Part shown: piece after piece, positions 12,263-37,056 of the stretch | How the letters are laid out: the number at the start of each line of letters is the position of its first letter | How positions within the stretch are numbered: position 1 is the stretch's first letter | Source: a virus | DNA: 64,000 nucleotides | Virus record (IMG/VR): IMGVR_UViG_3300021405_000009 | Coordinates: 1-64,000 of that record | Direction: 5' to 3' (one strand) | Notes under the pieces: generated by a model | What the model was told of the DNA's origin: nothing | Database searches by the model: none | The model's input: the letters and a program-made list of their open reading frames with translations, nothing else | Made by a program: the position numbers and the translations under genes

Positions 12263-12898
12263 CTAGGTAATTTCCTGGCCCCTTGCAGATGACGCCGGGC
12301 GCGGCTTGAAGATTGGTTCTGCGTCGAGCTTTCCATTCTCGATATAGATCGCGGCTACACCGCCTGGTTCAACCAGGGTGTAGTCGTGGTGGCCGCCGAG
12401 CATGGTTCCAACTTCGTGGATAATGCTGGAGTGAGCGACCAGTAATATGGGCTCGCCGATATGTAGTCCGATCCGGATCGCCTCAACGATCAGCGGGCGG
12501 ATGCGGCTTTGAAATTCGTAGAGCGATTCGCCGCCCGGCAAGGGGATGTCCGGATGCTGGACGTGGTAATCGACTAACTTGATGTTCTCGGCATTCTTAG
12601 GCTGTCCACCCAGGTCGCCCACATCCCACGCGCGCAGCCGAGGGTTCTCGGTCAGCATGTTGCGGTCAATGCCTTTGTGGTCGGCGATGATGTGCGCGGT
12701 CTCGCGCGTGCGCTTGCGGTCCGAAAGCACGATGCCAGATACGGCAATCGGCTCCAGATAGTAGGCGAGCTTATGCGCGTCGCGCTTACCCCTGGCGTCG
12801 AGGGGCGCATCGATCGGCCCCCGGTACGCGTCCTTGGCATTCAGGTCCGTGGTACCGTGGCGCGCCAACAGCACGAGCATGTGCTTTTCGCTAGGCAA
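12263..12898 (-). CDS. Histidine phosphatase family protein (phosphoglycerate mutase-like)
   Basis: 211 residues. LLARHGTTDLN puts the RHG nucleophile at residues 13-15. SDRKRTRETA (59-68) carries the second Arg, PGGESLYEF (121-129) the acid, and LLVAHSSI (152-159) the second catalytic His. All core residues of the clade are present, so activity is likely; the substrate is unknown. The gene overlaps the upstream small gene by 8 bases inside the virion operon. It is probably metabolic cargo. Confidence 0.85.
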   Translation of the reverse strand: MPSEKHMLVLLARHGTTDLNAKDAYRGPIDAPLDARGKRDAHKLAYYLEPIAVSGIVLSDRKRTRETAHIIADHKGIDRNMLTENPRLRAWDVGDLGGQPKNAENIKLVDYHVQHPDIPLPGGESLYEFQSRIRPLIVEAIRIGLHIGEPILLVAHSSIIHEVGTMLGGHHDYTLVEPGGVAAIYIENGKLDAEPIFKPRPASSARGQEIT

Positions 12899-20599: not shown

Positions 20600-22606
20600 T
20601 TATCCGCAAATGCCGCTGCCTAAGATCGGGTCCAGGCCAGGGGCTTGTACTTCGGCCGGTGGGCCTGTCTCAGGTCCCGGCGCAACTATGGGGTTGGGTA
20701 AGGCTTGCGTCTGCCACTCTAGCTGCCCGGTTTGGGCGTTGTGCTCCAGCAGAAAGCCGGTGAAGGGTGACGCATAGCCTTCCTCGAACATCAAGTGCCA
20801 GGCGGCGTCGGCGCGCGTGCCCGTGGGCATGTCGCTGGTCCGAATCAAGCTCGCCATCGCAGGCGCGTACTTGGGCTGCCGCGAGATCACGTCCGGAATG
20901 TCGTCGTGATGGTGGCTATGCAGGCAGCGTTCAAATTCGCTGTAGAGCGCATCGAGATGCGGCAGGTAGGCGGCAAACTTCAGGCGATCGTTCATCAACC
21001 AGGGATGCAGGGTTGCCATCCGCATCTTCTTCGAGTCTTTCTGGTTGTCGGGGATCACCCAATCGATCTTGCTGCATACGGCAATGACTTGGGGCTGGCC
21101 GGTCCGTTGAGCCTCGGCGATGATCGCAGGCTCAAGGAACCTCGAACCACCAGCGTCTTCCACGCCAATCACAAATGGCCGCCACTTCATCGCGAAGTCC
21201 ACAACGGCCTTGGCTAGATCGTTATGGAGGAAGCGGCCACGGATAAGATCAGTGATGAAGCACTGGCCTTTATCGTTCCATACGGCGCATGACGCAGTAG
21301 AGTAATCTCGTCCTTTTTTCTTGCTGAACGCGAAGTCCCAGGTTTGAGAGATCGGGCCACGGAATGGCATGTCTTGAAATGCCACCGTGTTCTTGACCAG
21401 CAAGGTTCTCGGGAACGGCGTACTGCTAGCCGGTCGAGGGTTTTGGTTGTATTGTCCCTCGAACGAGAGTTCGTCACGCGCCTGCTCTTGACGCAGGAAC
21501 GAATACGTTAAACTTTCCGGGAAGAGGAGATCGTAATGCTCCTCGGTAAGGGCGGCATAGGTCAGCACTCCCGTTTCGAGCTGACGAACAAAATCTGGCT
21601 TAATCTCCCACGCCCGGCCGATCAGAATCTTCAGGCCGGTGGTAAGGTTCTCGACGCGCTCCCAACAGGGGCCAGTCTCGCGCCGCAGGTCACCGACATT
21701 TTTTTCGATGATCTCGCCGTAGTAGTCTTCGTCGGCATAGCGCGTGCCGATCGCATCGAAGTAGCCGTAAGGCCGCAGCATTTTACGAATGCTGAGGTTG
21801 ATCTGCTTGATGACTTTCTTGCACTGGTCTTCGTTCTCGGAGTTGCGGTTCGAGATCACGTCATCGCCCTTGATGACTTCGAAGTGCAAGCCTGACAGCG
21901 TGGCCGTAATCGAGGCCGACATCACCGTGCGCTCGCGGCGCACTTTGCCCTGGCGTCGCCACACCGGGCAGGTAAACTCCATGCGGGCTTCCGCGCCAAG
22001 TTCTTTTTCGGTGATGCAGAACTCAGGGAAGAACAGGTTCATCAGGCTTTTTTCGTAGAGATGCTCCACGAAGTGGCCTTTGGTCTCATCCACGAACCCG
22101 ACCGCTAAATCGTCGGCAGCCGTCAGAAACAGCACGCGGATGTTGGGGAAGTTCAAGATCCATTGCACGGTGTCATAGACATCGATCGTGCTCTTCATGG
22201 AGCCGCGTGGATACAGCACCATGCGCTCCTTGCAGAACTTATCCTGCTCGGCAACGCTCTTCGAGTCATCCTTCTTTACGAACATATCGCATAGGCGGCG
22301 ATGCACGTGTTCGAGGATGAGGTTATCTTTGAACTGTTTCCCGGCGCTCTCCGGGTTGGTTTCCCAGAGGATGTAGCGCGAGAGGAAGTAGAGATCAGCT
22401 TTTGAGCGGCGGCGCGTCTCGATCGCGAAGTCCTGAGTGAGTAGCCACTTCAGGTACTCTTCGAGTCCCAGGGTCTCGCGCTTGACGCCGAGCGCCAGGC
22501 GCGCCTGCTTCTCGGCAACCGCGAGGTACAACTCATTATCTGGGATCTGTTCTGGGGACCCGTATCGGGCTTTCAGTTCAGCCCACGGCGTCATCTGTTC
22601 CGGCAT
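20600..22606 (-). CDS. terL: Terminase large subunit
   Basis: 668 residues. A deviant Walker A, PRGSMKST, lies at residues 133-140 and a Walker B-like IKGDDV at 245-250. The RNase H-fold nuclease follows, with candidate metal ligands in TWDFAFS (Asp 424), GVEDAGG (Glu 483) and HHDDIPD (566-572). It pumps DNA into the capsid through the portal and cuts it to unit lengths. The portal gene lies two small genes downstream. Confidence 0.9.
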   Translation of the reverse strand: MPEQMTPWAELKARYGSPEQIPDNELYLAVAEKQARLALGVKRETLGLEEYLKWLLTQDFAIETRRRSKADLYFLSRYILWETNPESAGKQFKDNLILEHVHRRLCDMFVKKDDSKSVAEQDKFCKERMVLYPRGSMKSTIDVYDTVQWILNFPNIRVLFLTAADDLAVGFVDETKGHFVEHLYEKSLMNLFFPEFCITEKELGAEARMEFTCPVWRRQGKVRRERTVMSASITATLSGLHFEVIKGDDVISNRNSENEDQCKKVIKQINLSIRKMLRPYGYFDAIGTRYADEDYYGEIIEKNVGDLRRETGPCWERVENLTTGLKILIGRAWEIKPDFVRQLETGVLTYAALTEEHYDLLFPESLTYSFLRQEQARDELSFEGQYNQNPRPASSTPFPRTLLVKNTVAFQDMPFRGPISQTWDFAFSKKKGRDYSTASCAVWNDKGQCFITDLIRGRFLHNDLAKAVVDFAMKWRPFVIGVEDAGGSRFLEPAIIAEAQRTGQPQVIAVCSKIDWVIPDNQKDSKKMRMATLHPWLMNDRLKFAAYLPHLDALYSEFERCLHSHHHDDIPDVISRQPKYAPAMASLIRTSDMPTGTRADAAWHLMFEEGYASPFTGFLLEHNAQTGQLEWQTQALPNPIVAPGPETGPPAEVQAPGLDPILGSGICG

Positions 22607-23265: not shown

Positions 23266-23577
23266 TTACATGGCCTGCGGCTGAGGTTGAGCGCCCTGGG
23301 CCTGGGGTTGCATGTTGTCGCCCACGTGTTGCTGCAGCGCGTCCATGTCAGGCACCGCGTGCTCTTCCGGCTCCTGCGGCATACCGCCGCCGCCGCCCTG
23401 CTGGGCAGGCTGGGGCTTGAAGTGATGTTTCACGATGAAGCCGCCGCTCTTGGCATGGCGAATGTGCATCTCGTGAACGGGCTTGCCGCCCTTCTTTGCT
23501 TTCGACTTGGGCTTCGACTTCGACTTCGACTTCTTTTTGCCGCCCATGGCGGAACCTACGCGGTCTTGATTGCGCAT
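23266..23577 (-). CDS. Lys/Ser-rich protein with 'HIRHAKSGGFIVKHH' core
   Basis: 103 residues from the ATG at 23577, which has AAGGA about 9 bases upstream. A Lys/Ser tract (about 13-30) precedes HEMHIRHAKSGGFIVKHHF, a short conserved-looking core seen in acidobacterial phage proteins as far as I recall. A Gln/Pro-rich tail follows. It abuts the next gene. Function unknown. Confidence 0.7.
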   Translation of the reverse strand: MRNQDRVGSAMGGKKKSKSKSKPKSKAKKGGKPVHEMHIRHAKSGGFIVKHHFKPQPAQQGGGGGMPQEPEEHAVPDMDALQQHVGDNMQPQAQGAQPQPQAM

Positions 23578-23599: not shown

Positions 23600-23995
23600 T
23601 TAGGTCCCGACGAAAGCGACCGTGATGGGGCCGATGGTTCCCGTGGCCGTGGGCGTCCCACTTAACACACATGAGGTTCCTGTGGAAGTGAGAGCCAACC
23701 AGCTTGGAAGCGTGCCTGCCGAGAGCGTGCAGGTGACTGAGGTCTTCGGTCCAACCGTCAGCAAGGTAACGCTGTAGGGCGTGCCGAGAGAGATGGTGGG
23801 TAGAGGACAGACGGTAAACGCTGGCGATGGTCCAGGCTGGCAACTGGTGGTGCCGACCGTTACGGGCGCGAATCCCCAGACGGCCGCAGAGAACTGGCCG
23901 CTTAGAGTTACTGTGCCAGTGGCTTGCGCAACAGCCTGTCCATGACCGAAGGCAGTGAAGGCGAATAAGGCGATGACGAGCAAATACTTTCTCAT
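23600..23995 (-). CDS. Secreted protein with a putative Ig (He_PIG-type) domain
   Basis: 131 residues from the ATG at 23995, supported by GAGG just upstream; a longer frame overlaps the neighbour. Signal peptide MRKYLLVIALFAFTAFGHG up to about VAQA. The mature part has TLSAGTLPSWLAL and CVLSGTPTATGTIGPITVAF, the signature of He_PIG-like Ig domains. Last member of the exported-protein run. It may bind a surface polymer or partner with the giant protein upstream. Confidence 0.7.
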   Translation of the reverse strand: MRKYLLVIALFAFTAFGHGQAVAQATGTVTLSGQFSAAVWGFAPVTVGTTSCQPGPSPAFTVCPLPTISLGTPYSVTLLTVGPKTSVTCTLSAGTLPSWLALTSTGTSCVLSGTPTATGTIGPITVAFVGT

Positions 23996-24006
23996 GTTAC
24001 CTCTTC

Positions 24007-27000
24007 CTAGTGATCTGCGAACGGGCCTGGGCTTCCGCACGGTGTGGCGCAAACGTATTGGTTGAGAACTTCGGCAGCCAGGGTAGAGGTTGGGTTAAAG
24101 CCAAGATCAGTTCCGTCGGTGGCTTGGTGTGCCGATCCCGCAGCATACAGACTAGCTTTGCTGTTACACGAAGCGTCGGTTGACTTACATAGACGGTACT
24201 GCGTCCAGTCGCTCACAATGATGGGGAAGGATGCGGCACTCATCGCCGCCAGCACGCCCGCGCAGTTTCCCGTCGCTGGGTCGTTGCCGGAACAGAACGA
24301 TGCCGGGACGCCGTAGAGTGTCGCGGGGGTTACTGCGACATACGCCGGAGTGTACTCGGTGTAGCAGGCCGCCATGCCACCGGCGCTCGGAGAGCCGTGG
24401 CCAGGGCAGGTCACAGAGCCGTCCACCGAGGGAAGCAGCGTGTTGTTGAACTGCATCGAGACCGGATCGTACATTCGGGTTGAGGTTCGCGTGCCCGCTC
24501 CGGCCGTGGAACTCAATCCACCATTGATGAGAATGCTGTTGGTGATCGTGAAATTACGCGCCAGTGGGAAGATGTTTGTGCCGCCGTTGGCCGAGTTCGA
24601 TGGATTGTTCTGGCTCAGCGGATCGTCGATCATCGTGATGTGCGAGAAGGCGTAGTAGTTTGGCCAGCCCTGCGCGCTAGATAGCGTGCAACCTGTAACG
24701 CCTGAGCCCGCCCCGCCTACACCCGGATTCGAGTACACGACGGTCAAGCCATTCAGCAGGGTGCCAGTCAGCGCCGGTGGCCCCATGACGTTGTTGCCGA
24801 CGTTGAAGCTTGTGTCGGAGCATCCCGTCACTGTGATCGGATCGCCGACCGCGATGTCGCTTACTCCCAACCCTGAAGCCGCAGTCAGCGTGAGTGTGGT
24901 AACGAACCCGGTTGGGTCGCGTAGTGGAGCTACGGCCCAGGTATTTCCCGGCACCGATGAGCCAATCCGCCAGCCGTATTGCGGAGTCGCGCCCGCGCAG
25001 GAATTTGACGTGAGGTTGCTATTCGGATTTCCCAGGAAGAACACGCTGGCGTTGTAGACCAGCCAGTTCGACCCGAAGAAGATCTCGTTGGGGAGCGATA
25101 CTCCGCCACCATTGCCACCGCCCGCATCAGACCTATCTCCAAGACTGGGACCATTGCAGGAGTTGCGCGCGACGATGTTCGTCACCGTCACGTTGTCAAG
25201 GGTTGTCCAGGTGTTCGTGGAGAGCACGCCGGAAGAAGTCTGCGCGGTCTTATGCGAGAAGTCGGTACCGTTTTGTGCTCCCGCATTGGTCACGTTCTCG
25301 TAGATGTTCCCGTCTTCAAGAACTCGCTCGCCAAACTTGTATTCGTGAGCGTTCTTACGCGTGTAGCCGTTGGTCACACTTGCATTCGGGAAGTAGCCGG
25401 TGCCGATGTTGACCGTGCCACTTGTGCCTGATCCGCCAGTTACACTAAGTCCGTTCGCCGGAAAGTATCCCGTGCCAGCCGTGGTCACCGTTACCGCCGT
25501 GATCGTTCCACCCGCGCCAACCGCTGTAATGGTTCCAGTTCCGCTGCTGCCACCAGTCTGTACCACCGTGATGACATCGTTGACCAGGTATCCGGAGCCG
25601 GTGCCAGCGCTTCCGTTCTTTGAGATCTGCCGAATGATCGGGACGTTCTCCGCCAGCATCCACGAATAAGGATAGGTGTAGCGGTTCGCGCGGTCTTCTT
25701 CGTCCTGGCAGGTCACGAAGTTGGTGAAGCTGATGGCGTTCGAGAACCCGCCGCAAAGCTTGCCGATCGCCTGCCCTTCGACCCAGTTGTGGGTGTACTT
25801 CGTCTGCTGCGCCAGCAAGGCTGAGATGGCGTGACCTTCGCTGCCTGGCCGGATGGCCTTGTCCATATAGACATAGACCACAGAGCAGTAAACGCAACCA
25901 TTGAAGGCAACCAGGCTCGGTAAAGAGTTCGCGCCCGTGGGCGCGCCGGTAGCAATGCACGTGCTCGGGCAGCCGCTCATCGGGGCGTCGGTCCAGTCCC
26001 CGTGCAGATAGCTGTAAGCCAGGTGGATATGCGTCGGCAGTTGGGTTTGAATCGTCTCGGTGTTCTGCCCCATGGCGAAGGGCGCGGACGATCCCACTAA
26101 CCCAGCTTGCGGCCGTAGTTCGGCATTCAGGACTGCGAAGTGATGCGGCCCGACGTTGTTGATGTCCCAGGTCGCGGACTGAATGGCGTTGCAACTGTTG
26201 GCCGTGCATTCGATGGTGTACATCGAAGCGATGTCGTTATAAGCCGACGTGTTGGTCGCGGTACCATTGGCCAGCGTAAACGCGCCCGATGAAACTGCGT
26301 TGATCGTCGTACCCAGTTGGTACGACATGTTGGCCCCAGTGCATCCCAGGTTGCGGATTCCTGGCTGGGTAGCCAAGACAATGTTGTCTTCGACTCCGTG
26401 CGAGCACGCAGTCTGCCCCGGCGTCAGTGGGCTGGTCGAGGTCAGAACGATGAAGTTCGTCGAAGTGTCGCCAGCGGTCTGGGGAAGAGTAATTCCATTT
26501 GCGCCGGTGTACAGCGCCGGAGGAATCGCGATCGTCGTTCCACTACCGTTCGCCGTCCGGCACGACTCCGCATCATTCACCGCCTGCTGCAAACTCGACT
26601 GACTGGCTGCCGTATAAGGGCCGTAATTTGTCGCGCCACAGGTCCACGATCCCCCGGTACTCGATGCCGGGAAGTTGATCGTGTTCGTCGTGGTGCCGTT
26701 GTACTCAGTGTTATTCACCCAAGTCAGCGGCAACTGCGGGGCCTGGAAGGTGGAAGTAACTGCGGTGTTCACCCTCAGCGTCAAGCTGCAGGGTAGATTG
26801 TTGTCCACCGTGAGCGTGCAAGGTGGGCTGGAGAATCCCGCATTCACATAGGGCAGGCTGGCCGTTTGCGTCAGCGTTACAACCGTGCCGTTGGCAAAGC
26901 TCGGAGTGCAGGTCGGCGGGCAAACAATTCCGCCAGGATTGATCGTCGTGGTCCCGGTCCCGGCAGGCGTGACGTTGAGAGTCGGCGTGACGGTCGAGAA

Positions 27001-29760
27001 CCCAAAAGTAAAGTTGCCCGATCCCGCTCCGGTGCCGACCGTGCTGCCTGCGGCAAAGGTCGCGGTGCCAACCGAGCTGTCGGTCCAGCCGCTGGCCATG
27101 CCGATCGCGGTAAGCGTCTGGGGGGTGACCACCGAAACAACGCCTGTATAAAGGATGGCGGGCGCAACGCAGGTTCCGCTTCCATTGGAAGCTGGAGTCG
27201 CTCCGTCCGTCCGGTAGCAGATCGCGAGCGACTGCGCCTGCGAGATGGTTACCGTCTGAGGCGGAAAACCGCCTACAGGAGAGAATGTCGGCGCAGCTCC
27301 CTGCAGGGTGTAGACATAAGTGTTGACAACGCTGTCGGTGTTGATGTTCGTGCCAGCGATAATCTTGAGGGTCGTGTTGACCGCAATCGAAACCGTCGCG
27401 CCGCTGGTAAGCGAAGTGCCGGTCGTGCAGCCCGTGCCCAGCGTGTTGGTCGCTGGCGTCGATCCGTTCGTGGTGTAGCACTGCACCGTCGTACCTGAGT
27501 TCGGGTTAGTGCAGGCGGGAGTCTGGGTAGCCGTATAGGTGCCAGTCCCTGGTGAGCAAGTCGAGGCCGAGGCCGCAGTCGAGCTAACGATGAAAGTCGC
27601 CGTAGCCGCAGTGCTGGTATCGGTGATGGTCAGCGTGCCTGCGATGGTGCCAACTGTGAGCACGGCAGATGCGGTGGTGTTTGAAGTTACAGTCGGAGTA
27701 GCCAGGCTGGCCCCGGTTCCGCCGCTCAATGAGAACAGCGTGCTAGCCGTCTCAGAAAGCCATAGGCAAGGGCCGGTGCAGGTCAGCGCCAAGGTCGGCG
27801 TCGTGCCGCGATTTCCCAGGGTAGGGAAGATGCCGAGCGTTGCCGTCGAGACTGTGATCGTAGTGGTGATCGAGTCTGTAGTGTCGGTAATGGTCAGTGT
27901 GCCGGTGCCAGAGCCGGTCGTGATCTGCAGTGTCTCTGAAGTCGCAGAAGAGTTCGACTTACTGGCCAGCGTAGCTCCGGTCACGCCAGAGATACTGAAA
28001 GCCGTGCTGCCGGTCCACGCCGTGTTAACCCCAGTGCAGAGCACCGCGATGTTATTGGTGTGATGCGAGGGGATGGTCGTGGGCGTACAGGTGAAGCTGG
28101 CGGGGGCTGTGTTGAACTCGTAAGATCCGGAGTCCCACGCTCCGCTGCCGGGGCGGGCATTGATGGTGGTGGACGGATAAGTTGCGATGAAGCCGCCCCA
28201 TGACGAGGACTCGCTCACACCACCGAGACTTGAACACAGGTCATTGGTGATCCCCCCAGTCCCGCAAGTGGAGGTTATATTATTGCCCTTGCCAACCGTG
28301 CTGTCAGTGCCGGATGTTGGCTGCCAGAAATTGGCGATGGTGTACCCGCCAGTCGCGGAGAAAATTTCACCACCATTGTCCGTGGTCGAGCAGACGTTGT
28401 GCGGCGTCACCGCTCCTGTGTTGCAGTTGAAGAAAGAGCTACCGCTGAACACGCCGCTACGGCCAGTGAGTTGGTTGTTCTCAGCGGTGATGGAAGATCC
28501 GCTGGCCCACGTGCTTAGGTGTGCGGTCATCCCGCAAGTGCCATCGGTGGAGTTGTTCAAGAAAGTCACGGTGATGACCGTGAAGCTATTGTTTCCGGTC
28601 GGCTCCAACAGGAAGCAGTTTCCATCCGTGGGAGGCTCGTGCTGGTCATTCACGACGACGTTGTTATAGATGTACATCGTCGGGGCGGCGGGATTCCACA
28701 TCTCGCCTTCATTCACGTTCGCGACGATATTGTTGTAGGCGGTGAATGTGCCGGTACTCTGCGACAGGGTCTCGATCACGTTTCCGTGACGGCCGTATCC
28801 AGGCTCAAAGATGAAGTCGAAGAAGTTGTCGTGGAGTAGAACGATACTGCCAGCTTCACAGCCTTGCGACGTGTGGATGAAGATACTATAGGCGAGAGTC
28901 GCACAATCGTCCATCGCCCAGAATGTCGCTGGGATTGGCGACGGAGTTCCGCTGCCGTTCCAGACCGAGGCTACGCAGCTTGAGACCGTGCAGACCTGGC
29001 TGGCGGTCGAGTCGGTGCCATCAAAGACATCGTAGTAATAAATGTTAGTGGTGCCGCCGCCGCCGTTAACGCCGCGCCAAGTGTCGTCCGAGGCGCTGGT
29101 ACCGGCCGTCCATCCGTGAAAATAGCTTCGCAGTACACCGCCGCTTGTGCCGGAGTTCACATAAGCGCCAGAAGGGTTTCCATTCCAGCAAGCTCCCGTA
29201 AACTCGATTCCATCAACGAAAATGTTCGTTCGACTGGACCAATCGAACAGCTTTAGCGTGTTGTCATCCGCCGCGCTGCAACTGGCCACAAAGGACGTGG
29301 ACAGTGTGTTGTCCATCGATAGGATTGGACGCGCGAACGACCCACCAGAAAACCATGTCGGGTCGATCGTGTAGTAGATCGGATTCGTGCCGTTGCCACT
29401 GGCCGTCGGCGTAATCGTCCCGCCAGTTGCAGGCGTCCCAGTGGTGTAGTGCCAGGTATCGCCGCCGCGAAAGATGAACGCGTCTCCGGCGATCGTGGTG
29501 TGGGTTCCAGTGAAACTGGACATGCCAGGAGCGTGGAGCCAGGAGTGGGTTTCGTCTACGCCGGTGTTTGAATCAAGCCCGCTGGAGCTGATGTAAAAGC
29601 ACTGCAGAATGCCCTGGCTAGCCAGCGTGGAGCTGCCAGAGTTGCCGCCAGTTCCTGGGCTCGACAGGTTGACATAGTTCGATCCGGACGGACAAGTGCC
29701 ACCCCATGCAGACAAGCTGATGGCGAAGAAACAGAAGAAGTAGAGAAGTTTCCTTACCAT
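24007..29760 (-). CDS. Giant exported beta-helix / tail-fibre-like protein
   Basis: 1917 residues. Signal peptide at 1-20 (MVRKLLYFFCFFAISLSAWG). A first parallel-beta-helix region follows (about 140-540; NIFVDGIEF, AYNNIVANVNEGE). Next come Ig-like repeats (about 555-735), two chitobiase/hexosaminidase C-terminal-like repeats (about 740-905; CYTTNGSTPATN, CYRTDGATPASN), and an InlB-B-like repeat. A second beta-helix region extends to the C-terminus and includes a fibre-type GSGYLVNDVITVV ... GTGYFPANG repeat. The start overlaps the upstream gene by 7 bases. An exported adhesin or receptor-binding protein is inferred. Confidence 0.8.
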   Translation of the reverse strand: MVRKLLYFFCFFAISLSAWGGTCPSGSNYVNLSSPGTGGNSGSSTLASQGILQCFYISSSGLDSNTGVDETHSWLHAPGMSSFTGTHTTIAGDAFIFRGGDTWHYTTGTPATGGTITPTASGNGTNPIYYTIDPTWFSGGSFARPILSMDNTLSTSFVASCSAADDNTLKLFDWSSRTNIFVDGIEFTGACWNGNPSGAYVNSGTSGGVLRSYFHGWTAGTSASDDTWRGVNGGGGTTNIYYYDVFDGTDSTASQVCTVSSCVASVWNGSGTPSPIPATFWAMDDCATLAYSIFIHTSQGCEAGSIVLLHDNFFDFIFEPGYGRHGNVIETLSQSTGTFTAYNNIVANVNEGEMWNPAAPTMYIYNNVVVNDQHEPPTDGNCFLLEPTGNNSFTVITVTFLNNSTDGTCGMTAHLSTWASGSSITAENNQLTGRSGVFSGSSFFNCNTGAVTPHNVCSTTDNGGEIFSATGGYTIANFWQPTSGTDSTVGKGNNITSTCGTGGITNDLCSSLGGVSESSSWGGFIATYPSTTINARPGSGAWDSGSYEFNTAPASFTCTPTTIPSHHTNNIAVLCTGVNTAWTGSTAFSISGVTGATLASKSNSSATSETLQITTGSGTGTLTITDTTDSITTTITVSTATLGIFPTLGNRGTTPTLALTCTGPCLWLSETASTLFSLSGGTGASLATPTVTSNTTASAVLTVGTIAGTLTITDTSTAATATFIVSSTAASASTCSPGTGTYTATQTPACTNPNSGTTVQCYTTNGSTPATNTLGTGCTTGTSLTSGATVSIAVNTTLKIIAGTNINTDSVVNTYVYTLQGAAPTFSPVGGFPPQTVTISQAQSLAICYRTDGATPASNGSGTCVAPAILYTGVVSVVTPQTLTAIGMASGWTDSSVGTATFAAGSTVGTGAGSGNFTFGFSTVTPTLNVTPAGTGTTTINPGGIVCPPTCTPSFANGTVVTLTQTASLPYVNAGFSSPPCTLTVDNNLPCSLTLRVNTAVTSTFQAPQLPLTWVNNTEYNGTTTNTINFPASSTGGSWTCGATNYGPYTAASQSSLQQAVNDAESCRTANGSGTTIAIPPALYTGANGITLPQTAGDTSTNFIVLTSTSPLTPGQTACSHGVEDNIVLATQPGIRNLGCTGANMSYQLGTTINAVSSGAFTLANGTATNTSAYNDIASMYTIECTANSCNAIQSATWDINNVGPHHFAVLNAELRPQAGLVGSSAPFAMGQNTETIQTQLPTHIHLAYSYLHGDWTDAPMSGCPSTCIATGAPTGANSLPSLVAFNGCVYCSVVYVYMDKAIRPGSEGHAISALLAQQTKYTHNWVEGQAIGKLCGGFSNAISFTNFVTCQDEEDRANRYTYPYSWMLAENVPIIRQISKNGSAGTGSGYLVNDVITVVQTGGSSGTGTITAVGAGGTITAVTVTTAGTGYFPANGLSVTGGSGTSGTVNIGTGYFPNASVTNGYTRKNAHEYKFGERVLEDGNIYENVTNAGAQNGTDFSHKTAQTSSGVLSTNTWTTLDNVTVTNIVARNSCNGPSLGDRSDAGGGNGGGVSLPNEIFFGSNWLVYNASVFFLGNPNSNLTSNSCAGATPQYGWRIGSSVPGNTWAVAPLRDPTGFVTTLTLTAASGLGVSDIAVGDPITVTGCSDTSFNVGNNVMGPPALTGTLLNGLTVVYSNPGVGGAGSGVTGCTLSSAQGWPNYYAFSHITMIDDPLSQNNPSNSANGGTNIFPLARNFTITNSILINGGLSSTAGAGTRTSTRMYDPVSMQFNNTLLPSVDGSVTCPGHGSPSAGGMAACYTEYTPAYVAVTPATLYGVPASFCSGNDPATGNCAGVLAAMSAASFPIIVSDWTQYRLCKSTDASCNSKASLYAAGSAHQATDGTDLGFNPTSTLAAEVLNQYVCATPCGSPGPFADH

Positions 29761-30338
29761 AGGTTCTTGTGCTCGGTCCAGTTCTTCAGGTAGACGCCGT
29801 GGCGGATCAGCGCGGAGGCTGGGGGCTTAAAGGCAGACATCGCCAATGGCGCGGTTACGCCCGGTTGAAATAAGTCAGAGTGCCCGTGGTAGGGCTTGAA
29901 TAGATCGGGGTGGCCGTAGTAAGTACACTTCACAGGCTCGTGGGTGCAGACCCTTGCGCCGACTCCGAATGAAACACCGTTGCCATCCATCCAGCAGTAG
30001 GACGTGATGTGCCTCTGGGCAACATCGGAGACGACCGCGTAATGGTCACAGCCGACGATGATCTTGCCGTCGATCTTGAGAGCTGCCACCCATCCAGGTG
30101 CGTCGTCCATAGGGCCGCTCATGTAGGGCTTGTAGGGAAGACTTCCCCAGTGAGCTACCTGCTCGAAGCCTTGCGGGTTCGACCTCGACCACTGCACATA
30201 GATCCGTGCGGTCTGGGCGGGGGCCATGGCGAGAAAGAGCCATAGACAGGCCACTAAAGCTGTAGTAAGGTTCCGGGTATGTTTAGAAAACTGTGCGATG
30301 AGTTCTTTCCTCGGCCAGATCTTTTTGATCGCCAACAT
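29754..30338 (-). CDS. Exported protein of unknown function, start uncertain
   Basis: 194 residues if the ATG at 30338 is used; GTG 30254 and ATG 30227 are alternatives and none has a clear ribosome-binding site. LVACLWLFLAMAPAQTA looks like a signal-peptide core ending in AQTA. The mature part (ARIYVQWSRSNPQG, then CDHYAVVSD and CWMDGNGVSFGVGARVC) has paired Cys. The 5' end lies antisense to the methyltransferase gene. It overlaps the giant exported gene by 7 bases. Confidence 0.6.
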   Translation of the reverse strand: MLAIKKIWPRKELIAQFSKHTRNLTTALVACLWLFLAMAPAQTARIYVQWSRSNPQGFEQVAHWGSLPYKPYMSGPMDDAPGWVAALKIDGKIIVGCDHYAVVSDVAQRHITSYCWMDGNGVSFGVGARVCTHEPVKCTYYGHPDLFKPYHGHSDLFQPGVTAPLAMSAFKPPASALIRHGVYLKNWTEHKNLW

Positions 30339-30872
30339 GGCACTAAGACATCTGGTCATTCTTGTCTTCCGTGGACCCGCGTTCTTCATGGCAAACGGGA
30401 CGAGACTTGCCGGTATCAGGGCATCGATCCCGCGCTGTTCTCCGCCGCCGTGAAGGACCTGCCGCGCTGGCCGTTTATTGATCTCGGTTGCGGCCGTGGG
30501 CGCGCTCTGATCCTGGCGCAGGAGGCTGGATTCACTGATCTGGCTGGCGTTGAATTCTCTCCAGCGCTTTGCCGCTGTACTCGCGCGAACCTGGCCAAGA
30601 CCAACACCGACGCCAAGATCATCTGCGGAGACGCGCGCGACTATGCGTTTCCCGCTAACCCGTCCGTGGTCTTCATGTACAACCCGTTCGGTGAGTCCAT
30701 CATGCGAACGGTTTTTGCTAACATGCAGGGGCATCCGCGCATCGTCGTGTATGTCAACCCGAAGCAGGCGCATGTATTTCGTCCATTCCATGTTCTGCGT
30801 TCCGACGAGAACACTGTGATCTTCAGCGATAGCGATAAAGGCGGGGACTTAGAGGGCGGTGGTCTTGGGTAA
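30279..30872 (+). CDS. Class I SAM-dependent methyltransferase, on the opposite strand
   Basis: 197 residues. FDRQHGTKTSG near residue 16, then motif I DLGCGRG (68-74), acidic GVEF (90-93), GDAR (117-120) and MYNPFG (133-138). This is a complete Rossmann methyltransferase core; the substrate is not evident. It is the only plus-strand gene in the left arm and overlaps its minus-strand neighbours at both ends. AAGG precedes the ATG. It is probably an independently expressed cargo gene. Confidence 0.75.
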   Translation: MFRKLCDEFFPRPDLFDRQHGTKTSGHSCLPWTRVLHGKRDETCRYQGIDPALFSAAVKDLPRWPFIDLGCGRGRALILAQEAGFTDLAGVEFSPALCRCTRANLAKTNTDAKIICGDARDYAFPANPSVVFMYNPFGESIMRTVFANMQGHPRIVVYVNPKQAHVFRPFHVLRSDENTVIFSDSDKGGDLEGGGLG

Positions 30873-31604
30873 GACGGTGGTCTTCGGCACTATGGTGGTT
30901 GCTGGCAGGGCCGAACCGGCAAAGAACGATATGGTGTAACCGGTAATCGCCATGCCGGTGGTGATGTTTAATACTGGGGTGTAAGTGGTGGCCGCGCCAA
31001 CCGTCTGGTACTCAACCGCGCCACTCTGGTTACCACCACTGGCTTGCCCGTTGGTTGAGATCGTGTAACCAGTGCCGTTCGTGAAGGTGTTGTTAGTCGC
31101 GCCATTCCCGCCCGATGTAAGCACAAGATCCCCGGTCTGCGTCGTGGTAATTGCAGGCATGGTGCAGGCCGTACAACTGGCGATGGAGTTGTTAAAGGCC
31201 CCGACATCGAAGGCGGCCGATGTTGCCACCCCCGAAAATTCCTGCCCCATACAAACGCAGAAGGTAGTCCCGCCCGTGAAGGTCACAGTCGTTGTCACCG
31301 TTCCCCCCGCGATGTTCGTGGCGTAACAATAGAACACGGCGTTCGCGGCGTGGAGCGTGGTGTAGGTATTCGTGCCGTCCGTGCAGGCAACTGTGACCGC
31401 GCCGCTGCTGCTGTTATATTCCGCGCCAACAATCACCAGTAGGTCGCCTGCCGTCGTAGTACCACAGGACACCGTGAGCGAGGCCACGTTACTGGACTGA
31501 TTGTTCGGCGTGCAGTCTTTGCGGAAGGCGATCGCGGCGTGCGCGGAAGAGGTCGCGGCTAGAAAAGAAATTGCGAGTAGAAGTAGCCAGAGTAATTTCT
31601 TCAC
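30849..31604 (-). CDS. Exported beta-rich protein
   Basis: 251 residues. A strong signal peptide (MKKLLWLLLLAISFLAATSS, cleavage near AHA) precedes a Thr/Gly/Ser-rich beta domain with several Cys (CGTTTAGDLLVIVGAEYN; CMGQEFSGVAT; ASCTACTMPAI). The pattern 'GDLLVIVGA ... F.G' resembles beta-sandwich domains common in phage or secreted proteins. It directly abuts the 1469-residue gene upstream and overlaps the methyltransferase 3' end on the other strand. Confidence 0.7.
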   Translation of the reverse strand: MKKLLWLLLLAISFLAATSSAHAAIAFRKDCTPNNQSSNVASLTVSCGTTTAGDLLVIVGAEYNSSSGAVTVACTDGTNTYTTLHAANAVFYCYATNIAGGTVTTTVTFTGGTTFCVCMGQEFSGVATSAAFDVGAFNNSIASCTACTMPAITTTQTGDLVLTSGGNGATNNTFTNGTGYTISTNGQASGGNQSGAVEYQTVGAATTYTPVLNITTGMAITGYTISFFAGSALPATTIVPKTTVLPKTTAL

Positions 31605-34600
31605 TTACTGGAGCCTCGTTGCGACCGCGCTCAGGGCATAGGTGGCGGTGCCGGTATTGCATTGGGAGAACGTCGTTGCGTACTGGATGACTGTACCGTT
31701 GGTGTCGATGTTGATGTCACCGCTACCCCAGGCGTTAACTGTCGTTGCCCCCCAGAGCATGATGCCGCTGGTAGCGAAGGCCGCGATGCTGGAATTCGTG
31801 ATGATCGGTATCGTCTGCGCTGAGTGAGCCGTCCCATTCGCATCAGTCCAGGTGAGCGAGAAGAGAACGCCCCCGGTAGTGTTCGCGCTGCAGGCGGCCC
31901 CCGACTGGTAGAGAGCGATGTGAACGTGGTAGGTGCCAGCCGTGTTGCACGCCCCAGCCGAGGCCGCGCAAAGGGTTGCCGTTCCAACTGAGGCCACTAA
32001 GGCCGTGGAGCGAATCGCGCCTGGCTGAGCCCGGACCATGGTTCCATAACTGGTGCTGCCGTTGGTGGCAGCCTTCCATTCATGTGAAGTGCTGTCGGGG
32101 TAAAGGTTCGACGTGCCGGAAACGTTCGTTGCCGACGTGCCTTCTGTCGCGCACAAACCGCCAGCGGTGCCGAAGCTGGTGCAGTTGGCTGCGCCCAGCG
32201 TCATCGCGCCCGCCGCCGCCAGGTTGCCGGTGGCTCCGAAGCTGAACTCTTTCGTGGCTCCAGAAGTCGAGAACACGCCGCTGGTGAAAGTGCCGAGAGT
32301 GTAGAAGTCAGCCAGGTCGCCAGCCGCTACCGTCTCGTTGACAATCAAAGGAACCTGCCCGGTGCCGCCCGCGCCCGTGGTGTTGATGCCAAGAGAGCCG
32401 GTGGTCGTGGTGGTCGTGTTCGCGTTGGTGAAGACGTAAGGGTAAGTTAGGTTCGCCGTCTCGACGCCCGCGCGCGTGATCTCATGACCAATGCCGGTCT
32501 CGGTGACTGTGGTCTGCGCGGCCGACCCGGTTAGCAAGCTTTCTGCCAGGGTCACGCCCGCGAGAACTCCGCCAGCACTTAGTGTGGCAGTCGCGTCCGG
32601 AGTCTGCGATGCCTGAGAGCCGCCGCCCGTCATCAGCGCCGTTGAGGTCAAGGCCGCCGCGCTGGTGACGCAAGTCGCGCAAGCAATGGTGCCGGTCGTG
32701 GTAATGGTGCCGCCCGTGATCGGGCCGGTCGTCGCGATGGAGGTTACTCCACCGGCGCTGGCCGTCTGCGGATTTTGCAGTTGCCACTCCGTGCCGTCAT
32801 AGATGGCATCGGCGATCGCCGTGGTCGTAAGATCGTTGGCGACCAGCGCAGCCGTTCCAAGCTTGGTGACGCTCTTGGCCGTCAAGCCGTTGACCGCGAG
32901 GGTCGGACCTGAAGTCGTGTTAGCCGCCAGCGGAAGCCAGCGAACTTCTACGCCCGTGGTAAGAGCTGTCACGGCCGGAGTGAAGGTCGCGGTTTGCGCC
33001 TGCGCCGTGCCGCCGCCCGCCACATAAGCGTTCGGGCTAACGTCTGAAGTACCAATCAACACAGCCGCTGGCGCTGTGGTTGAGGCCGTGTTATTGCCCC
33101 AGAACTGATGAGCTGTGAAGTTACTAACTACGGTCGAGCTGGCGTTCAGAACACAGCCTTCATCGACCGTCTGAAACACAACGTCGAAGCAATGGTTGGC
33201 CGCGTTGGCGTACCAGCCGTCATCGCCGGAGATCCCGGTGAACGCCGTGCCTTCTACTGCAATCCCGCCGCCACCGGTGCCCACAGTCGGGTTCGGAGCG
33301 CTCGCGCCGACAAAGGTGGTGCCAGCTACGCCGACGCTGAATACAGAAGATCCGCCCACCTGCAGGTCAGCCAGTTTGCTTCCCGCGCCAGAGGCGGTGT
33401 TGGTCACGTTCTCGAAGATCCCAGCATCCACCACACCCGAGGTATTCCAGGTCGGAGTGACCTTGAGCGCCGGTACAGTCTGAGTTCCAGTGAGCGAGTC
33501 GGACACAGTCAGCGGAACGGCCGTCGATCCGGCTAGGGTCGCGATCAGTACTTCCTGGTCGCTGGTTCCGGTGGCTGCGGTGGTCTCGCCGAAGGTGAGG
33601 GCAACCTGTGAGTTTGTGGATGTAGCCGAGTTCAGCGCCCAGGTGTTGTTCCCGTTCGCCAGCGTGGTGTTTGAAACCAGCGCCGTCACCGCACTCAATG
33701 CTGGAGTGGTGGACGCGCAGCTTCCGCCGTTGCACTGGTCGGCGTTGACGTGACCGCCGCCGAAGGCTTGAAACACCCCAGCCGTGGTCATCTCCGCGCC
33801 GTTGGAAGTGCCGCCAGCGGTAATCAGGATGGGCAGCGCGGTCGATCCGCTCTTGGTGGAGATCCCTACTTCAATGTCTCCCGTGCCGGTGGCCGCCGTC
33901 CCTTCCGTGAACCCAACGGCGGTCTGCGTATTTGTGGTCGTCGCCGACTGCCAGATTTCGTTGAAGTTCCCGTTGTTGATGGTGGTGTTGACCGTAGACG
34001 CGGTCACCGCGCTGAGCGCGGGTGCGCCGGTTTGCGCCACACAATCGCTCGCTTGCGGAGTGAAAACAAAGTTCGCGGTGTTACAGCCGGTCAAACCTTG
34101 AACTAAGGTTGCCACGTTCGCGGCCGTCGCGGAGATGGGCTGCTTCGACGAGTTCGATCCCAGCACCAGCGCCGAGGACGGCACCGCTCCCAGATTGATC
34201 TCGTCTGCACTAACATGCCCCGTGCCGCTGGCCTTGAATACGCTGGCAGAGGTTAGTACCACGCCATCGGTAAGGTTGCTTCCAGAGTCCGGTACGCCAG
34301 CCGTGAAGATCGAGGTCGAGTTCGATTCGCACTTCTCGATGTCGAGATAGCCCGCGTTCGGGTTGGTCGCGAAAGTGGTATTTAGAGCTACCCAGCCGCA
34401 ATCGCTGATCTGTTTGATCGGTGCGGTCCAGGCCAACGCCGAGGTCGAACCTTCATAACTCGCGGCGTATGGGTTGGTAACATTGTTGACCGGAAAGAGA
34501 AGCGCCAAGGGCGGCTGTGAATACGAGCTGCCACTCTGACCACTCCAGGTCCACTGATCGAAAAATGCAGTCGGAATGCTGACCGTGCCGCTGCCCGTGG

Positions 34601-36014
34601 CCGCCGCAAAGCCGCTGCCGAAGGCTACGCTCGAAGTGCTCGAACAACCGAAGCTGATGGTGCTGTTGTTGTAGCTCAGCCCAGTCGCGCAGTTCGGAAC
34701 CGTCGCAGCCTTAAAGACGCCCGACGAAGCTCCAATCAGAAGTTGGCTGGCAGCGATCGCAGTGGCCGTACCCGCGCCCGCGCCCGGAACTGCGGCGATC
34801 TCGCCCCAGCCCGCGTTGGCCACGTCATCATAGAGATTGCCGTCGCCTGAAACCGCCATGCCAGAGTTGCCCGTCCCGGCTGCCGCTGGTGTGCCGCTGG
34901 CCGCGATCGGAACCGTCGTCATGTAATACGGGCCGGTGAGCGTGAACTTCGACGCCACGATCCCGCCAGACGGCGTGTAAGTCAGGGTCGAACTGTTGTC
35001 CGATAGGTTGGTATCAAACGCGCACAGGCCGGAAGAGTTGGTGTAAAGAAAATTGCCGATGGAGGCCGTGACCCATGTAAGGTTGGTCGCTCCGGAGTTC
35101 ACGCACGGTACCTGCCCGGCCGTTGGGGAGCCATCGTTCACCTGGCTCAAGCTGACTGGGTTCGCGCCCACGAAGGCGTCGGTGGCAACGTCGGCCGAGG
35201 TATCTCCAGGCGTCTGCGTTACCGCCTGCGTGCCGGTGGCCAGGGTCGAGCTGACTGACCATGTGCCGGTGCTAACCTGCGCTACGCCGTTGGACGCGGA
35301 AGTACTGATTCCCGTCCCGCCAATCGCAGTGCCGATCGTGACCAGGCCGCTGTTCGGAATCGAGCCGTTGGTAATGTGCGAGCCATTCACGACAGTAGGA
35401 GCCGTCGCGCTGCCGCCCAGGTCGGTGTTTAGCTCGATCAATCCGAGCGTGCCCACGGCCGCGCTGGCCACGTTGAACTGGACGTTTGAACCCGATGGGT
35501 TGGTGGCTGTAGTGTTCGTGCCACTCTGAAAGTTAATGGGCGACAGAAGCGACGAGCCGCCGTTCACAGTGATAGCCGTGCTGCTGCAAGGGATCGCGCC
35601 CAGGACGCCGCCCGAGGAGAAACCAAAACAAGGCGTCGTCAAGGTGGGGGCGGTGCCAAAGGTGAAGGGCGATCCGCTGATGGTAAGGCCAAGTACAGTC
35701 GCGGCGTTCGAGCCCGAAGTCGTAACCTGCCCGCTCAGCTCTGAGGCTGCAGGCGTGGTGCCGTCGCGCAAGATGCCGGTCCCGGCGCTGGTCGAGTTCA
35801 ACCCGCCGTTGGCGCGCGTGACTGGCGAGGTTAGGTTCACCGTGACCGTGCCGGTCGTACCACCGCCACTTAGCCCCGTGCCCGCCGTAACTCCAGTGAT
35901 CGTGCCACTGCCGCCGCTGCCGCCACCCCGCCCGGTGTAACTCGGGGCCTGGCCAAACAGCATTGCCGCAGATAGCAGCCATAAGGCTGCGAGGAAGCTT
36001 AGTTTCCTGACCAT
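31605..36014 (-). CDS. Exported tail-fibre-like protein, 1469 residues
   Basis: Signal peptide (MVRKLSFLAALWLLSAAMLF, cleavage near GQA), then a Gly hinge and the fibre motif GVTAGTGLSGGGTTGTVTVN. Repeats of PALSAVTA ... NGN ... ATTTN(T/S)QTAV with GTSD(Q/I)EV recur around residues 690-850. A later block (VNGLTAKSVTKLG; IYDGTEWQLQNP) is typical of phage fibres. The start overlaps the upstream gene by 16 bases. A Sec signal on a cytoplasmically assembled tail protein would be odd, so a cell-surface role is possible. Confidence 0.8.
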   Translation of the reverse strand: MVRKLSFLAALWLLSAAMLFGQAPSYTGRGGGSGGSGTITGVTAGTGLSGGGTTGTVTVNLTSPVTRANGGLNSTSAGTGILRDGTTPAASELSGQVTTSGSNAATVLGLTISGSPFTFGTAPTLTTPCFGFSSGGVLGAIPCSSTAITVNGGSSLLSPINFQSGTNTTATNPSGSNVQFNVASAAVGTLGLIELNTDLGGSATAPTVVNGSHITNGSIPNSGLVTIGTAIGGTGISTSASNGVAQVSTGTWSVSSTLATGTQAVTQTPGDTSADVATDAFVGANPVSLSQVNDGSPTAGQVPCVNSGATNLTWVTASIGNFLYTNSSGLCAFDTNLSDNSSTLTYTPSGGIVASKFTLTGPYYMTTVPIAASGTPAAAGTGNSGMAVSGDGNLYDDVANAGWGEIAAVPGAGAGTATAIAASQLLIGASSGVFKAATVPNCATGLSYNNSTISFGCSSTSSVAFGSGFAAATGSGTVSIPTAFFDQWTWSGQSGSSYSQPPLALLFPVNNVTNPYAASYEGSTSALAWTAPIKQISDCGWVALNTTFATNPNAGYLDIEKCESNSTSIFTAGVPDSGSNLTDGVVLTSASVFKASGTGHVSADEINLGAVPSSALVLGSNSSKQPISATAANVATLVQGLTGCNTANFVFTPQASDCVAQTGAPALSAVTASTVNTTINNGNFNEIWQSATTTNTQTAVGFTEGTAATGTGDIEVGISTKSGSTALPILITAGGTSNGAEMTTAGVFQAFGGGHVNADQCNGGSCASTTPALSAVTALVSNTTLANGNNTWALNSATSTNSQVALTFGETTAATGTSDQEVLIATLAGSTAVPLTVSDSLTGTQTVPALKVTPTWNTSGVVDAGIFENVTNTASGAGSKLADLQVGGSSVFSVGVAGTTFVGASAPNPTVGTGGGGIAVEGTAFTGISGDDGWYANAANHCFDVVFQTVDEGCVLNASSTVVSNFTAHQFWGNNTASTTAPAAVLIGTSDVSPNAYVAGGGTAQAQTATFTPAVTALTTGVEVRWLPLAANTTSGPTLAVNGLTAKSVTKLGTAALVANDLTTTAIADAIYDGTEWQLQNPQTASAGGVTSIATTGPITGGTITTTGTIACATCVTSAAALTSTALMTGGGSQASQTPDATATLSAGGVLAGVTLAESLLTGSAAQTTVTETGIGHEITRAGVETANLTYPYVFTNANTTTTTTGSLGINTTGAGGTGQVPLIVNETVAAGDLADFYTLGTFTSGVFSTSGATKEFSFGATGNLAAAGAMTLGAANCTSFGTAGGLCATEGTSATNVSGTSNLYPDSTSHEWKAATNGSTSYGTMVRAQPGAIRSTALVASVGTATLCAASAGACNTAGTYHVHIALYQSGAACSANTTGGVLFSLTWTDANGTAHSAQTIPIITNSSIAAFATSGIMLWGATTVNAWGSGDINIDTNGTVIQYATTFSQCNTGTATYALSAVATRLQ

Positions 36015-36772
36015 GTAACCGTAGCTCCCGTCGTCGAGGCGACGACAAAAATAGCGTTGGAATTACTTACGGCTGGACAGTAGCCCGCTCCAGGAGGTAT
36101 CTCAATGCCGGTCGAGGTAGTAACTCCACTCGGTCCGACAAACACGCTGATCGTGTTGGTACTCAGTCCTTCAATACACAAACCCTTGGCCAGTAAGTTC
36201 GAGGCCAGGGCCGCCGCCGTGCCAGTTACTGCCTGCTGACCGGAAACAATCGTGGTCGGCACCGTCAGCACTACCACCTGCGGACTGGGAAAGTTACTCA
36301 CCGTGACCGCACCGGCAGCCGCTGAGGCCGGGTTGTTCACGAAGCCGAACAGGAAGACAGTCACCGAGCCTGAGCCGGTAACGGTTGGGGTGATCTTGCC
36401 CTGGGTCGCGAAGACCGCCGAGCCGATCGTGTTCGAACCGGCGCTGGTACAGGTCTGAGAAGTCATCAGACTGCCGGTGGTGTAAGCCGTGCCAGCCGCG
36501 TTCAGTCCATCGACCGTCAGCGTACATCCCGACACCGTGCCTTGCGGTACCCAGATCATCTGGTACCAGCCAATGCCCTTGGTGTTGAAGCTCGCAGTCT
36601 GCACTGAGCTGCTGGTGAAGGTGTAGGCCAGGCCAAGCTGGTAAGGCACCGCCACGGGATAGATGATCTGGCTGGGACCACCTGTCTGCGAGAGCGCCGG
36701 GGGCGCGACCACCAGACTCAGTAGACCGACCATGAAAAGGATTACTAATAGGTTGCGCACGAGCTTCTTCAT
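35999..36772 (-). CDS. Exported protein, first of the secreted run
   Basis: 257 residues from the ATG at 36772, which overlaps the upstream stop as TAATG. The signal peptide (MKKLVRNLLVILFMVGLLSL, cleavage near PALSQ) precedes a beta-rich region (IIYPVAVPYQLGLAYTFTSS; GIEIPPGAGYCPAVSNSNAI). The last part resembles short beta domains of virion proteins. Function unknown; the exported tail-fibre-like protein is immediately downstream. Confidence 0.7.
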   Translation of the reverse strand: MKKLVRNLLVILFMVGLLSLVVAPPALSQTGGPSQIIYPVAVPYQLGLAYTFTSSSVQTASFNTKGIGWYQMIWVPQGTVSGCTLTVDGLNAAGTAYTTGSLMTSQTCTSAGSNTIGSAVFATQGKITPTVTGSGSVTVFLFGFVNNPASAAAGAVTVSNFPSPQVVVLTVPTTIVSGQQAVTGTAAALASNLLAKGLCIEGLSTNTISVFVGPSGVTTSTGIEIPPGAGYCPAVSNSNAIFVVASTTGATVTWSGN

Positions 36773-37056
36773 TACTCTTCGTCCTCGTCCTTGCGGCCGA
36801 TCCGCCACACATACTCACAACAGCCCTCGGGATCAACCTTGACTTTCCCGTCAGGCAGGCGCGGCTGCTTCGACTTGGCTTTCATATCTTTTTGGTTACA
36901 GGCTCCCGGCTTCGAGAACCACTTACAGTTCTCGCACTCAAACTCGCCGAGATTCTTCGCCGCCTCATAGCCAGTGCCGGGCTCACCGCGAACGGCGGCC
37001 TGGTTGATGCTCACAAGTTTGCTGTGGCCGGAGCCGAGTTCGTCCTTAGCTGGCAT
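36772..37056 (-). CDS. Small Cys-rich protein, possibly iron-sulfur or zinc binding
   Basis: 94 residues from the ATG at 37056; a TTG at 37089 would lie inside the hairpin at 37071-37102 and is less likely. FECENCKWFSKPGACNQKDM and DPEGCCEYVWR give five Cys in the 'C..C..f....C......g...p.g.C..y' style of small phage metal-binding proteins. It overlaps the first exported-protein gene by 4 bases (TAATG). Confidence 0.7.
   Translation of the reverse strand: MPAKDELGSGHSKLVSINQAAVRGEPGTGYEAAKNLGEFECENCKWFSKPGACNQKDMKAKSKQPRLPDGKVKVDPEGCCEYVWRIGRKDEDEE

Follow-up and report, generated by a model that had tools for sequence, protein, structure and literature searches.

Gene content and organization of the block

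Between positions 23,600 and 36,772 of the window, the stretch of 64,000 nucleotides corresponding to bases 1-64000 of the 98,239-base IMG/VR virus record IMGVR_UViG_3300021405_000009, the minus strand carries a block of six open reading frames (ORFs), most of whose products begin with a Sec-type signal peptide and two of which are giant, fibre-like proteins of 1469 and 1917 amino acids (aa) (Table 1). All six ORFs were confirmed to be present, although they are not strictly consecutive as described in the initial annotation, since a plus-strand methyltransferase gene falls between those starting at 31604 and 30338 and extends over the start of the latter. The virus is a tailed phage from soil, with the terminase large subunit (TerL), the portal or connector and the major head protein all recognised by PHROGs, and its map probably closes, because the two ends of the record share a 148-bp overlap (98% identity).

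From the block into the TerL, portal and major head genes, all on one strand, the intergenic spacing ranges from -16 to 51 bp, the exception being a 510-bp gap at the insertion that contains the methyltransferase. With the same exception, the range between the gene starting at 37056 and TerL is -16 to 22 bp. Because this tight same-strand spacing runs through to TerL, the block is part of the structural operon, just 5′ of TerL. The ATG of its first gene, coding for the 257-aa protein, overlaps the stop codon of the gene upstream, and no excess of σ70-like promoters was found in the block region. The nearest cultured TerL relative found was that of the podovirus Tunturi_3 of Tunturiibacter psychrotolerans (29.8% over 81%). 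The genome also encodes an integrase (phrog_1, E 1.4e-13), which in a search of genome contigs had a 52% relative in one Acidobacteriaceae metagenome-assembled genome; the TerL search of the same kind gave zero matches. Based on these TerL and integrase relatives, an acidobacterial host is likely, not proven.

Table 1. Features of the window. A slash marks the predicted cleavage site; scores are those of the signal-peptide rule described in the text; Cys, cysteines.
Feature	Positions	Strand	Signal peptide (score)	Mature Cys	Remarks
94-aa gene	36772..37056	-			bounds the variable block on its 5′ side; conserved in L005, L006
257-aa protein, predicted exported	35999..36772	-	...PPALS/QTGG (6.9)	4	
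1469-aa fibre-like giant	31605..36014	-	MVRKLSFLAALWLLSAAMLFG (4.7)	22	
251-aa protein, predicted exported	30849..31604	-	...SSAHA/AIAF (9.0)	8	GTG start
Class I S-adenosylmethionine (SAM) methyltransferase	30279..30872	+			antisense inside the block; PF13649 E 7e-9
194-aa ORF	29754..30338	-	candidate, late: LFLAMAPA/QTA (2.7, fails rule)	4 (candidate site)	start uncertain; inside the insertion
1917-aa giant	24007..29760	-	MVRKLLYFFCFFAISLSAWG/GTC (5.4)	52	
131-aa immunoglobulin-like protein, predicted exported	23600..23995	-	(8.9)	4	He_PIG at cut-off, E 5.5e-5
103-aa gene	23266..23577	-			bounds the block on its 3′ side; conserved in L005, L006
Terminase large subunit (TerL)	20600..22606	-			phrog_38 E 9.8e-48; downstream of the block, same operon, gaps 0-22 bp from block
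Portal / head-tail connector	17721..19808	-			phrog_332 E 1.5e-25, phrog_1216 E 5e-15
Major head protein	13981..14967	-			phrog_1357 E 3.2e-20
370-aa fibre-type protein	2833..3945	-	none		no Cys (0%); 62.5% identical to the N-terminus of an L006 protein without signal peptide

The two giants had been called fibre-like, a description that holds for their gene position, their composition and the modules they have in common with other phage proteins, but not for database families: neither matched a PHROG at E 0.1 or a Pfam fibre family, sub-threshold Fn3_assoc being the only Pfam signal, and neither found a match among 50,697 phage records at E 1e-3. The C-terminal module of the 1469-aa protein is common to signal-peptide proteins of other phages, and parts of this protein recur in signal-peptide proteins of the loci L045 and L008 and in a protein of L041 that has no signal peptide. 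The 1917-aa protein carries a Fn3-associated or chitobiase-C-like module (Fn3_assoc E 0.0016, below the cut-off), for which its homologue at locus L007 lies above the cut-off with both Fn3_assoc and CHB_HEX_C_1; gene product (gp) 17 of the cultured phage Tunturi_1, which combines this module with a sub-threshold Beta_helix match, aligns with it at 47% over 85 aa. The N-terminal part of the 1917-aa protein may be β-helix-like, judging by eye from its sequence pattern. AlphaFold2, proposed earlier as a check, gave an unusable model for residues 21-600 of the 1917-aa protein (mean predicted local distance difference test, pLDDT, 27.6), which was not used, and a low-confidence model for the 251-aa protein (mean pLDDT 55.1), all-β behind an N-terminal helix, for which no PDB match better than E 0.048 was found. 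The 1917-aa sequence matched nothing among solved structures, and two fimbrial matches of the 1469-aa sequence (E 0.04-0.06) were judged to be due to chance.

The signal peptides of the block

The signal peptides of the block are real. They were assessed by a rule written for this analysis, combining a positive n-region, an uncharged hydrophobic core and a signal-peptidase-type cleavage site, with residue weights that were not fitted; the other genes of the 98-kb genome were called by a simple script. Five of the six block genes passed (those starting at 36772, 36014, 31604, 29760 and 23995, the same five for which a clear signal peptide had been claimed), versus 8 of the 142 other genes of the genome (Fisher p 1.3e-5). 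When only proteins of 250 aa or more were counted, 4/4 passed in the block and 0/20 elsewhere in the genome. Moreover, none of 317 internal 50-mers of the called genes passed, and shuffled N-termini of the six block proteins did so in 0.1 to 5.5% of cases. The 194-aa product, previously considered to have a plausible signal peptide, fails the rule, but a candidate is visible behind a long n-region. The N-terminus MVRKL, to which attention had been drawn because both giants begin with it, is not conserved, their L007 counterparts beginning with MNLNRK and MKTLLF. The signal peptide itself is kept between the 1469-aa protein and its 1537-aa counterpart of L007, though the sequence behind it has diverged.

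Recurrence of the block in other phages

In the relatives L005 and L006, whose TerL is 82% and 77% identical, both genes bounding the block are kept with about 1.25 kb between them, where no rule-passing signal-peptide gene occurs. A cognate block of six consecutive genes, all coding for proteins with a signal peptide, was found at L007, in a phage (G004, 61 kb of sequence) that showed no homology to the genes called in the window genome outside the block (tblastn, E 1e-3). Four of the six L007 proteins are 57-86% identical to those of the window: residues 287-1469 of the 1469-aa protein are 79% identical to the 1537-aa protein, the 251-aa protein has relatives with signal peptides in L007 (86%) and L096 (76-78%), and the homologue of the 131-aa protein is 73% identical. 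The 257-aa protein had no match in 8 related records, in a search run without a positive control, and a cysteine-poor L006 protein without signal peptide, once suspected as a relative of the 251-aa protein, was rejected when profile comparison gave no support. The insertion between the 251-aa and 1917-aa genes, containing the methyltransferase and the 194-aa ORF, is absent in L007, where the cognate genes overlap at TAATG. On the separate contig L096, the 251-aa gene lies at 78% identity behind another signal-peptide gene.

Signal-peptide ORFs of at least 300 aa were also sought 5′ of TerL in 58 of 80 TerL-related loci, the other 22 having been excluded mostly for little upstream sequence. They were found by the rule at eight loci (L036, L041, L042, L045, L047, L086, L088 and L089) and by eye at three more (L028, L034 and L035), with TerL identities from 59 to 27%; L042 and L047 are identical in this region, L086 and L089 near-identical, and L088 is a variant. 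The remaining 47 of the 58 loci had no such ORF in the sequence examined. The signal-peptide protein of L034 carries a concanavalin-type lectin domain.

These observations are best explained if the block is an exchangeable host-range module that sits immediately 5′ of the terminase gene. That it consists instead of captured host genes for secreted proteins, with no phage role, is barely credible: CHB_HEX, Fn3-associated and Ig-like modules are indeed common in bacterial secreted proteins, but such genes recur 5′ of TerL in divergent relatives, and an otherwise unrelated phage has four of them at 57-86% identity.

Cysteine content of the mature proteins

Folding in an oxidising compartment tends to go with even cysteine numbers, which offers an independent test of export. 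The mature cysteine number is even in all six window proteins (4, 22, 8, 4, 52 and 4 in gene order, the fourth counted beyond its candidate site and amounting to 5 with it), and that of the 1917-aa protein is odd if the signal peptide is retained. Similarly, 30/30 chosen signal-peptide proteins from the window phage, its relatives, L007, L008, L096, Tunturi_1 and Tunturi_4 had even mature counts, and six of them would be odd with the signal peptide retained. This set was hand-chosen (signal peptide, and fibre-like, large or a member of a block), the total cysteines but not the mature parity having been seen beforehand, and it includes four proteins outside the rule, namely those of L028 (2.9), L034 and L035 (n-region net charge 0) and Tunturi_1 gp13 (3.4); the L028 start in the parity script was one codon late, with no effect on its cysteine count. 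The 30 proteins fall into 23 sequence clusters, counting the 1917-aa protein and its L007 homologue separately, and the chance of all being even is p 2.4e-7.

An unselected list of 30 different signal-peptide ORFs, each 200 aa or longer, overlaps the chosen set and contains the near-duplicates L086 and L089. In this list, even counts were observed in 22 of the 28 ORFs with at least one mature cysteine, and in 14/15 of those with at least 300 aa; the sole odd one of this size is the 426-aa L068 protein, with 3 cysteines, encoded downstream of TerL. Among control ORFs of the same loci without a signal peptide (at least 300 aa, at least 4 cysteines), 60/139 were even. The mean cysteine content was 2.35% in the signal-peptide set versus 0.39% in 18 hand-picked fibre and tail proteins without signal peptide, which still include the L006 protein once suspected as a 251-aa relative. 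Furthermore, all 20 aligned cysteines are shared between the 1469-aa protein and its L007 counterpart, and 17 (of 22 and 28) between the 1917-aa protein and the 1936-aa protein of L007.

The even mature counts, the cysteine content and the shared cysteines argue that the signal peptides function and are removed, and that the mature proteins hold disulfide bonds. Alternatively, the hydrophobic N-terminus could be a tail-anchoring or trimer-nucleating segment, or internal starts could yield cytoplasmic fibres. Tailed virions normally assemble in the cytoplasm, and the scores of the giants (4.7 and 5.4) fall short of those of the small rule-passing proteins (6.9-9.0), which would suit such an explanation. 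It is nevertheless improbable, given the 30 even counts, six of them reached only upon cleavage, the signal peptides on all six L007 block proteins and the failure of all 317 internal segments to mimic one. Export of the block proteins, as initially proposed, is thus well supported and very likely.

Association with virions

Support for virion association comes from other phages. Eleven Cellulophaga proteins encoded in consecutive runs (phi19:1 gp101-104, phi18:3 gp85-87 and phi10:1 gp91-94) have signal-peptide N-termini, eight according to the rule and three by eye only (phi19:1 gp104, 4.3; phi10:1 gp92, 4.4; phi18:3 gp85, 3.6), and the GenBank notes on all 11 state that the annotation derives from experimental tandem mass spectrometry (MS/MS) proteomics. 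Proteins with the same type of annotation and no signal peptide are encoded in the same stretches (phi19:1 gp97 and gp98, phi10:1 gp90), as are six that were checked in phi14:2, one of them a tail protein of the lyase type; phi19:1 gp96 and phi10:1 gp88, cut by the stretch ends, were left out of this check. One of the phi14:2 proteins, gp97, is the lyase-type homologue of phi19:1 gp102 and has no signal peptide, yet it is MS/MS-annotated; therefore, the lyase-type module appears to reach virions with or without one. For two other phages of this collection, phi18:4 and phi18:1, a later paper credits the structural proteomes to Holmfeldt et al. 2013 and cites the same work for mass spectrometry of purified phi18:4 particles (PMC11946311).

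The initial annotation knew of no described phage system with this layout, which is in fact already present in deposited genomes, including those of cultured phages. In phi19:1, phi10:1, phi18:3, Ingeline and Nekkels, as in the window, three to four consecutive signal-peptide proteins adjoin the structural genes, and they include pectate-lyase spikes. For Ingeline and Nekkels, one sentence of Bartlau et al. 2021 remarks that the lyase-domain proteins also bear signaling peptides (PMC8776804). In the cultured phages Tunturi_1 and Tunturi_4 of Tunturiibacter (Acidobacteriota), large cysteine-rich signal-peptide proteins likewise lie among the structural genes: gp12, gp13 (below the rule, 3.4), gp14 ('tail spike') and gp17 ('virion structural') in Tunturi_1, and gp113 ('tail protein') and gp114 ('virion structural') in Tunturi_4, the quoted annotations being predictions. 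Unlike the block of the window, that of Tunturi_1 does not immediately precede TerL but occurs farther on in the run of structural genes.

A link to tailspikes was found within the L007 block, in a 455-aa member (L007:1697-3064) whose residues 29-117, behind the signal peptide, constitute the N-terminal domain of tailspikes that have no signal peptide. This domain is homologous to the tailspike N-termini of the podoviruses Xanthomonas PBR31 (E 1e-6) and Shewanella X14 (E 4e-4), both of which start with the domain. Signal peptides were looked for in four of the 21 matching records (L103-L106, from phages of Vibrio, Shewanella and Xanthomonas and from an uncultured podovirus); all four proteins open with the domain and have none. 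This architecture therefore suggests that the signal peptide of the L007 protein precedes a tailspike-type protein.

Among the three possibilities raised in the initial annotation, externally attached fibres are the best supported, by the Cellulophaga MS/MS analogues and the L007 tailspike-type domain. Less well supported are prophage products that serve lysogenic conversion as adhesins or exclusion factors. These are brought to mind by the integrase gene, by a separate signal-peptide PEP-CTERM protein encoded in the genome and by lambda Lom, a signal-peptide protein whose gene is flanked by those for the tail spike and the tail fibre (PMC12309495). Lom resembles the block proteins in being a signal-peptide protein encoded among tail-fibre genes and differs from them in being an outer-membrane β-barrel made in lysogens (PMC12309495), not a giant fibre-like protein. 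A lysogenic role is, however, very improbable for the block, which forms one operon with TerL in a region with no excess of σ70-like promoters; in addition, Tunturi_1 has a similar block, yet the paper on the Tunturi phages names recombinase or integrase genes for Tunturi 3-5 only (PMC11924767).

The chief rival explanation is that the proteins are exported and act freely or at the infected cell, never on the virion, either in the periplasm or on the cell surface, or, when freed at lysis, as soluble depolymerases or as receptor-masking or superinfection-blocking factors. Signal peptides and cysteine pairing would fit it equally well, and some similar blocks hold enzymes, such as the L086 protein with a signal peptide and an alpha-galactosidase-type domain (L086:1812-3896, Melibiase_2 E 2e-9) encoded shortly 5′ of TerL, or the trypsin-like signal-peptide proteases whose genes lie 3-8 kb 5′ of TerL in four of the relatives (L023:570-1244, L026:397-1128, L040:5195-5959 and L092:6058-6798). 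We consider this explanation rather unlikely, in view of the 11 analogous Cellulophaga proteins that are MS/MS-annotated as virion proteins and of the tailspike-type domain behind the L007 signal peptide.

Several observations weigh against attachment to virions or against the generality of the cysteine signal. The parity is weak in signal-peptide ORFs of 200-299 aa, with 8/13 even in the unselected list. The Cellulophaga proteins, from phages of Bacteroidota hosts, are analogues of the window proteins, homology not being demonstrated, and they lack the cysteine signal, with 4/11 odd (phi19:1 gp101 and gp104 with 1 and 11 cysteines, phi18:3 gp86 and gp87 with 1 and 3); their MS/MS notes are silent on loss of the signal peptide, and co-purification with particles is possible for exported proteins. 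PHROG and Pfam searches revealed no virion-docking domain in the window giants. The window phage itself also encodes a fibre-type protein with no signal peptide, the 370-aa protein of Table 1, whose N-terminus resembles Tunturi_3 gp15 (annotated as tail fiber) by eye only, with no formal comparison. In Tunturi_3, none of the 31 structural-module genes checked passes the rule, and its fibres have no signal peptide. The main text of the Tunturi paper never uses the terms 'signal peptide', 'mass spectrometry' or 'SDS-PAGE', and no virion proteomics was seen in the text searched (PMC11924767).

A proposed route to the virion

On balance, we favour, with moderate confidence, the interpretation that the block encodes Sec-exported, disulfide-bonded fibres or spikes that join virions outside the cytoplasm. 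The signal peptides, the operon position, the occurrence of the cassette in phages that are otherwise unrelated and the cysteine pairing are backed by the data. Docking to virions is somewhat probable by analogy with the cultured phages and from one tailspike-type N-terminal domain, and the late timing, the docking step and the binding of a receptor or polysaccharide are inferred.

According to this proposal, the block would encode accessory adhesion proteins, comprising fibre- or spike-like giants and small partners, which would be expressed together with the structural genes. The proteins would leave the cytoplasm via the host Sec pathway, be trimmed by signal peptidase and undergo oxidative folding with disulfide bonds in the periplasm. 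Lysis would then release them to dock onto virions assembled in the cytoplasm, to which they would add surface-binding or polysaccharide-acting parts. Whether some tailed phages that infect Acidobacteriota, and some that infect Bacteroidota in a different form, finish their adhesion apparatus outside the cytoplasm in this manner, by Sec export, periplasmic holding and loading at lysis, is about an even call.

In the textbook picture, a tailed phage is assembled completely in the cytoplasm. If fibres and spikes are routed through Sec across a wide range of environmental phages, virions would gain adhesins at or after lysis, and host-range parts could draw on the secreted-protein repertoire and disulfide chemistry of the host, matching its own secreted proteins in size and cysteine content; signal peptides would then need to be considered in annotation pipelines, in predictors of receptor-binding proteins and in phage engineering. 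In a literature search by titles and beginnings of abstracts, none of the matches listed treats signal-peptide fibres or spikes as a class or explains their route to the virion, and no prior report of the cysteine parity or of the cassette in otherwise unrelated phages was seen in the literature searched to this extent. The question is testable now in cultured phages with this layout, such as Tunturi_1 and Cellulophaga phi10:1 and phi19:1, virion MS/MS having been done for the latter two according to the GenBank notes.

Additional genes of the phages

The methyltransferase within the block also gives a match to part of the PADLOC model 'mad2' (E 4e-10). The structural operon also contains a histidine phosphatase gene (12263-12898, minus strand; PF00300 E 5e-28) and a gene for a glycosyltransferase-like protein (6993-8042, minus strand). 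Elsewhere in the genome, a PP2C-type phosphatase is encoded at 76623-77393 (L002:12623-13393; PF00481 E 1.3e-15), with a 33% relative in L008. The PEP-CTERM protein mentioned above, encoded at 57254-57892 on the minus strand, has a signal peptide and a C-terminal PEP-CTERM motif above the Pfam cut-off, as expected of an exosortase-type sorted protein; its gene sits in a short minus-strand run of a mostly plus-strand region and is a candidate for lysogenic conversion. Finally, phage G004 encodes a further signal-peptide protein with 8 mature cysteines (L099:8425-9405, minus strand), whose gene adjoins a possible major capsid gene, guessed from its size and position.

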